Shown here in pieces: positions 2,615 through 7,637 of a DNA stretch of 64,000 nt (position 1 is its first letter; each line of letters starts with the position of its first letter). The notes below the pieces were generated by a model, which was not told where the DNA came from, searched no databases, and saw nothing but the letters and a program-made list of their open reading frames with translations. Source of the DNA: Catenulispora acidiphila DSM 44928 (GTDB lineage Bacteria > Actinomycetota > Actinomycetes > Streptomycetales > Catenulisporaceae); the NCBI RefSeq assembly GCF_000024025.1, contig NC_013131.1:9342229-9406228 (forward strand), in the 5' to 3' direction. A program made the position numbers and the translations under genes.

Positions 2615-3451
2615 CTAGAGCCGACGCTGCGCCATCTTCGCCGCCGCGACCGTCTGCTCCAGCAGCACGGCGATCGTCATCGGGCCGACGCCGCCCGGCA
2701 CCGGTGTGATCAGGCTTGCCTTGTCCACCGCGCCGGCGAAGTCCACATCGCCGATGTTGCCGGGGTTGTAGCCGGCGTCGATGACGACCGCGCCGGGCTT
2801 GATGGCGTCGCCGGTGATGAACTTCGGCTTGCCGACGGCGGCGACCAGGATGTCCGCCTGCCGCGTGTATGACGCCAGGTCGGCGGTGCGCGAGTGGCAG
2901 TAGGTCACCGTCGCGTCGCGGGCGAGCAGCATCATGCCCACCGGTTTGCCGAGGATCGGGCTGCGTCCCACGACCACGGCGTGCTTGCCGGCGAGGTCGA
3001 CCTCGTATTCGTCGAGCAGGCGCAGGATGCCGCCGGGGGTCGCCGAGACGAAGCCGGGCTCGCCGAAGGCCATCGCGGCGAAGGAGTGCATCGTGACGCC
3101 GTCGACGTCCTTCTCCGGGGCGATGGCCTCGAAGGCGGCGCGCTCGTCGATGTGCGGCGGGACCGGGTGCTGGAGCAGGATGCCGTGGACGTCCGGGTCC
3201 TGCGACAGCTCGGTGAGGGCGGCGACGAGGGTGCGGGTGGTGATGGCCTCGGGCAGTTCCACGTGCCAGGAGCCGATGCCCGCCTTCGCACTGCGGTTCT
3301 GCTTCATGCGGACGTAGGTCACCGAAGCCGGGTCCGAGCCGACGAGCACGGTCGCCAGGCACGGCGTCACGCCGTCGGCCTTCAGCGCGGCCGTGTCGGC
3401 GGCGGCCTGGTCGACGATGCGCTTCGCCGCGGCTGTTCCATCCATGAGCAT
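2615..3451 (-). CDS. folD: bifunctional methylenetetrahydrofolate dehydrogenase / methenyltetrahydrofolate cyclohydrolase
   Basis: FolD interconverts 5,10-methylene-, 5,10-methenyl- and 10-formyl-tetrahydrofolate with NADP, supplying one-carbon units to purine synthesis. The 278-residue protein matches the family length. It has the substrate motif SVTYVRMKQ with Tyr46 and the catalytic Lys50, the dinucleotide-binding segment VVGRSPILGKPVGMML, and the C-terminal PVPGGVGPMT signature. The start is the ATG at 3451 because AGGAGG lies 7 nt upstream; the longer reading frame to 3505 runs through the riboswitch. A second ATG at 3445 is less well placed. Expression is expected to depend on the ZTP riboswitch immediately upstream. 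Confidence 0.96.
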   Translation of the reverse strand: MLMDGTAAAKRIVDQAAADTAALKADGVTPCLATVLVGSDPASVTYVRMKQNRSAKAGIGSWHVELPEAITTRTLVAALTELSQDPDVHGILLQHPVPPHIDERAAFEAIAPEKDVDGVTMHSFAAMAFGEPGFVSATPGGILRLLDEYEVDLAGKHAVVVGRSPILGKPVGMMLLARDATVTYCHSRTADLASYTRQADILVAAVGKPKFITGDAIKPGAVVIDAGYNPGNIGDVDFAGAVDKASLITPVPGGVGPMTIAVLLEQTVAAAKMAQRRL

Positions 3452-3458
3452 GAGCGCG

Positions 3459-3565
3459 CCTCCTGGGCGTCTTGAGGAAGTCGCCCAGGCGCACGGCAAA
3501 GACACGGTGTCGGGCCGCTCCCCGGTGGTGATCCCACCTCAGCGCCAGTCACGGCCTGACTGCAC
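3459..3565 (-). promoter_or_regulatory. ZTP (pfl) riboswitch controlling folD translation
   Basis: Read on the minus strand, the leader carries the conserved landmarks of the pfl/ZTP class in order: a 5' stem ending GTGACTGGCG (about 3543-3555), GGTGGGATCACCACC then GGGGAGCG (about 3514-3540), a variable linker, and the universal GCCTGGGC (3483-3490). ZTP/ZMP is the purine intermediate that builds up when 10-formyl-THF is short, and folD is a classic target. The segment CCTGGGCG (minus strand of 3482-3489) is perfectly complementary over 8 nt to CGCCCAGG (minus strand of 3462-3469), which contains part of the AGGAGG Shine-Dalgarno (3459-3464). Ligand binding to the aptamer should therefore free the ribosome site: a translational ON switch. 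Confidence 0.88.
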
Positions 3566-3600
3566 TCTAATCCACCGCTGTTTCTCCTCCACCGCCGCCG

Positions 3601-3628
3601 GTCCCCGGCGGCTCGCGCCGGCGGGGAC
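3601..3628 (-). terminator. hairpin downstream of the reductase gene
   Basis: GTCCCC at 3601-3606 pairs with GGGGAC at 3623-3628, with GGCG/CGCC pairing inside. It lies between the reductase stop codon and the folD riboswitch and has no T tract, as is common for actinobacterial terminators. Its role as a terminator is inferred. Confidence 0.4.
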
Positions 3629-3636
3629 CCGCGTGC

Positions 3637-3679
3637 CAGGCCTCAGGCCTCAGGCGTCAGGCCTCAAGCCCTCAGGCGT
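3637..3679. repeat. heptanucleotide tandem repeat (CAGGCCT-like)
   Basis: Six near-identical 7-bp units, CAGGCCT or CAGGCGT with one CAAGCCC variant, follow one another and run into the last codons of the reductase gene (stop at 3672-3674). The array looks like slippage-prone sequence at the gene's 3' end; no function is apparent. Confidence 0.75.
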
Positions 3680-4982
3680 CGGGGGCGATCTTCGCCATCG
3701 CGTTGATGATGCGGTCCATCGCGTCGCCGCCCTTGGGGTCGGTGAGGTTGGCGAGCATCTTCAGCGTGAAGCGCATCAGCATCGGGTGCGACAGGCCGCG
3801 CTGGGTCGCCAGGCGCATCACCTTCGGGTTGCCGATCAGGCTGACGAACAGGCGGCCCATCGTGTAGTAGCCGCCATAGGTCTCCTTCAGCACGCGCGGG
3901 TACGCCGACAGCGCCAGCTCCCGCTCCGGGCCCGCCGGACGCGCCAGCGCCTGCGCGATGACGTCCGCGGCGAGCTCGCCGGACTCCATCGCGTAGGCGA
4001 TGCCCTCGCCGTTGAAGGGGTTCACCATGCCGCCGGCGTCGCCGACGAGCAGCACGCCGCGGGTGTAATGCGGCTGGCGGTTGAAGCCCATCGGCAGCGC
4101 GGCGCCGCGGATCGGCTCGGTGCGGTTCTCCTCGTTGAAGCCCCACTCGTCGGGGGTGTTCTTCAGCCAGGCGCGCAGCAGGTCCGGGTACTTCACGTTG
4201 CGGAAGGACTTGGTGGTGTTCAGGATGCCCAGGCCCACGTTGGAGGTGCCGTCGCCCATGCCGAAGACCCAGCCGTAGCCGGGCAGGAGGCGCTCGCCGT
4301 CCCAGAGCTCGAGCCAGGACTCGAGGTAGTCGTCGTTGGTGCGCGGCGACTTGTAGTAGGTGCGATAGGCGACACCCATCGGGCGGTCGTCGCGCTTGTG
4401 CAGACCCAGCGCGATGGACAGCCGGGTGGAGTTACCGTCGGCGGCGACGATGAGCGGCGCGCGGAAGGAGGTCTCGCGCTTGCCGCCGTCGGCGTCGGTG
4501 ATGCGCGCGGTCACGCCGATCACCCGGTTGCTGCGCGGGTCCACCACCGGACCGGTGACGTTCGTGTTCTCGTGCAGCCGGGCGCCGGACTTCTCCGCCT
4601 GGCGCGCCAGGATCTGGTCGAAGTCGGCGCGGGGGCGCACCAGCCCGTAGTTCGGGTACGCCGCCAGCTCCGGCCACGGCATCTCCAGCCGCATGCCGCC
4701 GCCGATGATCCGCAGGCCCTTGTTGTGCAGCCAGCCGGCCTCCTCGGAGGTGTCGACGCCCATCCGCACCAGCGACTTCACCGCGCGCGGCGTCAGGCCG
4801 TCGCCGCACACCTTCTCCCGCGGGAACTGGGACTTCTCCAGCAGCAGGACGTCCAAGCCGGCGGTGGCCAGATGGTGGGCCGTCGCCGAGCCCGAGGGCC
4901 CGGCCCCGACCACGATGACGTCGGCGACGTTCTCCGAGGGCACGGCCTCGCTCGGAGCGGCGGAAGAGGATTGCGCGGTCAC
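3672..4982 (-). CDS. geranylgeranyl reductase family flavoprotein (probable menaquinone side-chain reductase)
   Basis: The 436-residue protein begins (GTG) VTAQSSSAAPSE and has an FAD-binding Rossmann motif VVGAGPSGSATAHHL with Gly26, Gly28 and Gly31. It continues with EKSQFPREKVCGDGLTPRAV, typical of the geranylgeranyl reductase branch of p-hydroxybenzoate hydroxylase-like enzymes, and has a second FAD motif VLLVGDAGGMVNPFNGEGI. Members such as mycobacterial MenJ reduce isoprene units of menaquinone, and this gene sits with menG and the futalosine genes. The actinomycete is therefore likely to make partly saturated menaquinones. The frame stays open far upstream, but that part has no family similarity. 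TAGAAT ends 7 nt before the GTG, suggesting a leaderless start. Confidence 0.85.
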   Translation of the reverse strand: MTAQSSSAAPSEAVPSENVADVIVVGAGPSGSATAHHLATAGLDVLLLEKSQFPREKVCGDGLTPRAVKSLVRMGVDTSEEAGWLHNKGLRIIGGGMRLEMPWPELAAYPNYGLVRPRADFDQILARQAEKSGARLHENTNVTGPVVDPRSNRVIGVTARITDADGGKRETSFRAPLIVAADGNSTRLSIALGLHKRDDRPMGVAYRTYYKSPRTNDDYLESWLELWDGERLLPGYGWVFGMGDGTSNVGLGILNTTKSFRNVKYPDLLRAWLKNTPDEWGFNEENRTEPIRGAALPMGFNRQPHYTRGVLLVGDAGGMVNPFNGEGIAYAMESGELAADVIAQALARPAGPERELALSAYPRVLKETYGGYYTMGRLFVSLIGNPKVMRLATQRGLSHPMLMRFTLKMLANLTDPKGGDAMDRIINAMAKIAPDA

Positions 4983-6941: not shown

Positions 6942-7637
6942 TCAGTCTTCCTTATACGCGCGATGCAATGCGACGATTCCGCCAGTCAGGTTACGGTGCG
7001 CGACCCGCCGCCAGCCCGCCTTGCCGATCACCGACGCCAGTTCCCGCTGGTCGGGCCAGGCTCTGATCGACTCCGCGAGATAGACGTAGGCATCCGGGTT
7101 CGAACTCACCTTCGTCGCCACCGCCGGCAACGCCTTCATCAAGTACTCGATGTAGACGGTGCGCAGCGGCGCGATCGTCGGGCGCGAGAACTCGCAGACC
7201 ACCAACCGCCCGCCGGGCTTGGTGACGCGCAGCATCTCGCTCAGCGCGCGCTCGGTGTCCTGCACGTTGCGCAGCCCGAAGGAGATGGTCACCGCGTCGA
7301 AGACGCCGTCCCGGAACGGCAGGCGCGTGGCGTCGCCGGCGGCGAACGTCAGATGCGGCAGGCGGCGCTTGCCGACCTGGAGCATGCCCAGGGAGAAGTC
7401 GCAGGAGACGGTGTCCGCCCCGGCGGCGTGGAACGGCTGCGTGCTCGTGCCGGTGCCGGCGGCGAGGTCCAGGACCCGCTGCCCGGGCTTGGCGTCCACC
7501 GCCTGGCGCACGGCGCGCCGCCACAGCCGCGTCTGGCCGAGCGCCAGCACGTCGTTCGTCAGGTCGTAGCGTTCGGCCACGCCGTCGAACATGGCGGCGA
7601 CCTCGTGCGGCTGTTTGTCCAGGGATGCTCGGCTCAC
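6942..7637 (-). CDS. menG: demethylmenaquinone methyltransferase
   Basis: MenG/UbiE performs the last step of menaquinone synthesis, SAM-dependent C-methylation of demethylmenaquinone. The 231-residue protein has the UbiE start region [23 protein letters not shown] motif [12 protein letters not shown] (about residues 55-66), and the family signatures [27 protein letters not shown] and [12 protein letters not shown]. Length is normal. The GTG at 7637 has no Shine-Dalgarno; GAGAAT (7644-7649) ends 6 nt upstream as a -10-like box, so a leaderless start is likely. The formamidase-like lipoprotein follows 4 nt after its stop. Confidence 0.94.

Follow-up and report, generated by a model that had tools for sequence, protein, structure and literature searches.

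The folD gene of Catenulispora acidiphila DSM 44928 is preceded by a full-length ZMP/ZTP (pfl) aptamer, one strand of which can also pair with the Shine-Dalgarno (SD) region of the gene. This leader probably responds to ZMP/ZTP and switches folD on at the level of translation. The gene lies in the stretch of DNA that was analyzed as a whole (here, the window; 64,000 nucleotides of contig NC_013131.1). Unless noted otherwise, coordinates are those of the window and features lie on its minus strand.

A ZMP/ZTP aptamer upstream of folD

Screening of the window with Rfam (cmscan) gave a single match above the gathering score, RF01750 (ZMP-ZTP), at positions 3562 to 3476. The match scored 64.7 bits (gathering score of 39; E = 3.2e-8) and spanned the full length of the model (positions 1 to 86 of 86). 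A first-pass annotation of this DNA had recognized the pfl/ZTP signature in the folD leader and had staked it on a covariance-model search, and the signature came through that search clearly. The Rfam alignment delimits the P2 hairpin (GGUGG...CCACC, 3538 to 3524) and the two strands of P3 (UUGCC, 3499 to 3495, and GGCGA, 3485 to 3481). The pseudoknot forms between GGCG in J1/2 (3546 to 3543, apparent in the sequence as well as in the alignment) and CGCC (3491 to 3488). With these elements in place and a one-carbon/purine gene directly downstream, the aptamer is, as judged by its sequence, an ordinary member of the known ZMP/ZTP class, and it would be expected to bind ZMP/ZTP. In one relative (L009), the pseudoknot strand reads CGTC and J1/2 carries the complementary GACG (ACTGACG), a naturally occurring compensatory change within the core of the aptamer.

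The downstream gene (2615 to 3451) encodes a 278-amino-acid methylenetetrahydrofolate dehydrogenase/cyclohydrolase. Both FolD Pfam domains (PF00763 and PF02882) are present, and the best matches to the NCBIfam FolD models fall below those models' own cutoffs. According to Weinberg et al. 2010 (PMC2864571), the genes most commonly associated with pfl RNAs include folD, glyA, and purH. The ATG start codon (3451 to 3449) lies 25 nt from the 3' end of the aptamer and is preceded, at a distance of 7 nt, by the SD sequence AGGAGG (3464 to 3459). The reading frame is uninterrupted up to a GTG at 3505 (2615 to 3505), and starting there would place the SD hairpin described below inside the coding sequence. 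Such a misassigned start is scarcely credible: the GTG falls within the aptamer, AGGAGG is well placed for the ATG, and the upstream frame is not conserved, since linker length shifts by single bases among close relatives (L001, L112, and L113). We therefore retain the ATG. Just upstream of the leader is a geranylgeranyl reductase/MenJ-like gene (3672 to 4958) and, farther up, a demethylmenaquinone methyltransferase gene (6942 to 7637); together, they form a menaquinone neighborhood.

For comparison, we searched for RF01750 in two genome sets, and it matched 125 of 297 Actinomycetes genomes and 13 of 14 Catenulisporaceae genomes. The gene-assigned leaders numbered 133, consisting of 92 glyA, 20 folD, 17 purH-type, and 4 serA leaders. 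All of them contain an SD-like stretch, and the start codon follows the CGCCTGGG block at a median distance of 40 nt. In 129 of the 133 leaders, compared to 0.6% of control windows, ACTGGCG is preceded at 15 to 25 nt by a TANNNT motif, whose spacing is nearly fixed (mostly 18 to 21 nt). Because of this near-constant distance, the aptamer probably stands at the 5' terminus of the transcript. In the window, the corresponding candidate -10 element is TAGAGT (3569 to 3564), with a predicted transcript start at about 3557.

Predicted pairing of an aptamer strand with the Shine-Dalgarno region

The segments CCTGGGCG (3489 to 3482) and CGCCCAGG (3469 to 3462) are complementary at all eight positions, and the last three bases of CGCCCAGG are the first AGG of the SD. 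The upstream strand (CCUGGGCG, 3489 to 3482) runs from within the pseudoknot 3' strand, across the U-G of the P3 loop, into the P3 3' strand. In the predicted folds, it is common to the aptamer and to the repressed state, where it acts as an anti-SD strand, and it is conserved in folD leaders. Its partner, which we call the invader, overlaps the SD, as indicated by both folding and conservation. The first-pass annotation had assigned a perfect 8-nt complementarity at the SD to the conserved block GCCTGGGC. A perfect 8-mer does exist, but it is offset by one base from GCCTGGGC, which itself pairs at seven of eight bases; the SD is indeed overlapped, but only its first AGG is covered in the GCCTGGGC register. 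Because AGG occurs twice in the SD, a second register is available, in which GCGCCT pairs with AGGCGC and the other AGG is bulged. Both registers hide the SD in the predicted folds. The proposal that the two structures are mutually exclusive held up, as pairing of the invader takes up the 3' strands of the pseudoknot and of P3 alike.

In the absence of ligand, the SD is predicted to be engulfed by a leader hairpin of about 13 bp, whose 3' arm includes the SD and ends about 3 nt before the ATG. The local hairpin segment has a predicted free energy of -26.3 kcal/mol (z = -2.1; 6 of 200 shuffled sequences were as good), and the fold of the full leader is unexceptional (z = -1.0 versus shuffles). 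The free fold of the leader (-60.7 kcal/mol) and the aptamer-enforced fold (-45.6 kcal/mol) are about 15 kcal/mol apart, with the pseudoknot and ligand not counted. The predicted ligand-free structure thus pairs the SD and excludes the aptamer, as in a translational ON riboswitch. Across the folD leaders, predicted SD accessibility was 0.44 with the aptamer locked and 0.33 in the free state, and this difference exceeded that of shuffled sequences at few single loci. The gain is modest because GC-rich leaders hide their SDs by themselves. An extra helix in the aptamer-locked fold (GUGUCUU:AAGACGC) was dropped, as it was absent from the relatives inspected by eye.

The same hairpin could instead act on transcription, either as an intrinsic terminator lacking a T-tract or through Rho acting on untranslated folD mRNA. 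Its strength and GC-richness are compatible with such a role, the well-studied ZTP switches all act on terminators (PMC10085676, PMC7337938), and literature cited in PMC10907184 links translational riboswitches elsewhere to Rho-dependent termination. Yet the terminator scan detected no terminator-like site in 3300 to 3720, no T-tract lies between the aptamer and the folD start codon, and no intrinsic terminator overlaps the 3' part of the aptamer as in a transcription-terminating ZTP riboswitch. An 8-base stretch with at least five T's occurs ahead of the start codon in only 6 of the 133 leaders. Control of transcription is also disfavored by the position of the SD, within a 3' arm that stops just short of the ATG, and by the pairing centered on the SD, which selection has kept in 49 of 52 folD leaders (see below). 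We regard it as unlikely and favor sequestration of the SD.

Conservation of the pairing in folD leaders

To sample folD leaders regardless of pairing, we searched for the FolD protein in 148 genomes of the order. A close FolD (63 to 100% identity) was found in 59 genomes, and the aptamer was present upstream in 57 of these 59. Two close folD genes had no detectable ZTP aptamer (L143, from G306, a 77% complete assembly, and L187, from G396); in L143, folD follows almost directly after the upstream reductase gene. Together, the protein search and the Actinomycetes RF01750 search yielded 52 distinct folD leaders from Catenulispora and Streptomycetaceae, which are mostly from Streptomyces and hence not independent. 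L069 and L103, two leaders of other families that had also been assigned to folD, were excluded from this set, either as not being close FolD orthologues or due to an uncertain start; they lack the full-length helix of the first register.

In the main register, 29 of the 52 leaders form 8 contiguous pairs, 14 form 7, 6 form 6, and 3 form only 3. At least six pairs are therefore present in 49 leaders and at least seven in 43. Among background AGGAG sites before ATG or GTG, drawn from the window and from the loci of relatives, at least six pairs were found in 10 of 124 (8.1%). Of the three exceptions, L163 and L164 keep a shifted-register helix (GGGCG:CGCCY), and L176 is weaker. When each distinct invader 8-mer was counted once, 13 of 16 had at least six pairs. 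Paired cells made up 92.8% of the alignment in register, compared to 26 to 51% when the strands were slid by 1 to 3 columns. In the 20 folD leaders among the 133, the predicted probability of pairing between the SD and the aptamer 3' strand was 0.46, versus 0.11 with the linker shuffled, and 14 of them had a P value of ≤0.05 in the linker shuffles. A pattern scan of named genomes gave 61 ZTP-associated examples, mostly from Streptomyces; since the scan selects for pairing, it does not count as a test of it.

The changes in the invader are almost exclusively C to T opposite G, which leaves a G-U pair; natural variants of CGCCC (3469 to 3465 in the window) include CGCTC and CGTTC. Variation among the paired positions is greatest opposite the second G, where 26 leaders have C, 23 have T, and 3 have G; these three are the ones that do not use the main register. 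Across the folD leaders, the aptamer strand is invariant, and no double-sided compensatory changes were observed. As the aptamer side never varies, strict covariation is not demonstrable: in the strict test, shuffles of the 3' letters equaled the observed score. What the alignment displays is conservation of pairing via one-sided changes, not covariation. The SD lies 17 to 53 nt after the CGCCTGGG block, and because linker length varies to this extent, it is the pairing that is kept rather than the spacing or an upstream frame.

The aptamer could also be genuine and the pairing without regulatory function, a by-product of GC-richness and of a widespread SD context. Any SD containing AGG is complementary to the CCU of the conserved aptamer block, and the folding scores of single loci are unremarkable, as this explanation would have it. 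Against it, ribosome binding puts no constraint on the five bases ahead of the AGG, yet their pairing is kept, and runs of at least six pairs are far above the 8% background. The glyA, purH, and serA leaders are a further argument against a by-product: they share the aptamer, and their SDs are just as strong, yet they mostly stop at 3 to 5 pairs. We had considered the helix as a general feature of Actinomycetes ZTP leaders and rejected this, since most leaders of these three types do not have it; for the same reason, the extension of the helix is, within this comparison, specific to folD. Because the conservation is folD specific, chance pairing is unlikely, and we consider the by-product explanation highly improbable. 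An SD by itself would give far less conservation of pairing than the folD leaders show.

In the other leaders, predicted pairing between the SD and the aptamer was weak or close to that with shuffled linkers, at 0.15 versus 0.07 for glyA, 0.07 versus 0.06 for purH, and 0.24 versus 0.05 for serA (4 loci). C. acidiphila itself has a second ZTP riboswitch before glyA (positions 1501 to 1606 of locus L002; genome positions 1863420 to 1863525, plus strand; 54.5 bits), which folds no better than shuffled sequences (z = 0.11). Some glyA leaders (L016, L017, L025, and L047) have a CCUCCGGC:GCCGGAGG hairpin over the SD after the aptamer, and the 5' arm of this hairpin seems to contact the extended 3' strand of P3. 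This hairpin is possibly a different translational platform.

A candidate translational ON-switch and its relatives

The following sequence of events would account for the arrangement of the folD leader. The mRNA would start at the 5' edge of the aptamer. When 10-formyl-THF is plentiful and ZMP/ZTP low, the nascent CGCCCAGG would displace the 3' strands of P3 and the pseudoknot, and the resulting GC-rich hairpin of about 13 bp would bury the SD and leave folD untranslated. When 10-formyl-THF runs short, ZMP/ZTP would build up and lock P3 and the pseudoknot ahead of the invader, whose synthesis follows about 20 nt later. With the SD left free, folD would be translated, and FolD would restore 10-formyl-THF. 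The hairpin, once formed, would be hard to undo, so the ligand would have to act in the brief interval before the invader appears. The choice between folds is probably made once, during transcription (kinetic control), because the predicted stability of the repressed fold far exceeds that of the aptamer fold without ligand. The ON direction fits the physiology, since ZMP/ZTP signals a shortage of 10-formyl-THF and FolD helps to make this compound (PMC2864571, PMC7266159). We infer the ON direction, the translational level, and the kinetic control of the switch from these considerations.

The genome of C. acidiphila contains a second FolD outside the window (G000:C1:9256694-9257518), which is 44% identical and has no ZTP aptamer. 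Given this aptamer-less copy and the occurrence of the riboswitch type in 59 of 148 genomes, the riboswitch-type FolD looks like an accessory inducible copy. The ZTP riboswitch class was reportedly defined by Kim et al. in 2015, and sequestration of the SD is a standard riboswitch output. Our literature search returned no description of SD sequestration for actinobacterial ZTP riboswitches; Kim et al. 2015 may mention translational examples. The remark in the first-pass annotation that described ZTP switches mostly act on terminators agrees with four published accounts (PMC2864571, PMC10085676, PMC7337938, PMC13273304), and a covariation study of full-length ZTP riboswitches set out from terminator-containing sequences (PMC13273304).

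The folD leader resembles the described ZTP riboswitches of RF01750 in aptamer sequence, P1/P2/P3, pseudoknot, and gene association. Unlike those members, which mostly overlap a terminator, its competing strand holds the SD. In the pfl switch of Clostridium beijerinckii, the invading strand first pairs with the 3' side of P3 and then works its way through the pseudoknot, yielding a terminator unless the ligand blocks it (PMC10085676). Like this switch, the folD leader would be an ON-switch in which P3 and then the pseudoknot strand are displaced without ligand, but the C. beijerinckii invader builds an intrinsic terminator, whereas the folD invader is predicted to build a ribosome-binding-site hairpin. 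A strand-exchange translational ON riboswitch of Vibrio vulnificus (PMC10907184) likewise holds the SD/start region in a hairpin that is freed on binding. It has another aptamer and ligand, and unlike in that example, the anti-SD strand of the folD leader is the pseudoknot/P3 strand of the ligand-binding core itself.

The riboswitch class, the folD association, and SD sequestration are thus already known, and what the folD leaders would add is a conserved translational expression platform for the ZTP class. On balance, and with less assurance than for the single leader, we favor the view that the folD ZTP switches of Catenulispora and Streptomycetaceae are a translational branch in which the pseudoknot/P3 strand doubles as the anti-SD, control is kinetic, and the regulated gene is an accessory inducible FolD. 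No part of this overturns existing views. The compact pair CCUGGGCG:CGCCYAGG suits tests of kinetic control in translational ZTP switches. The ZTP mechanism has so far been worked out on terminator-controlled examples, and a conserved set in actinomycetes that employs the same displacement of strands to gate ribosome binding would show one aptamer wired to two outputs.
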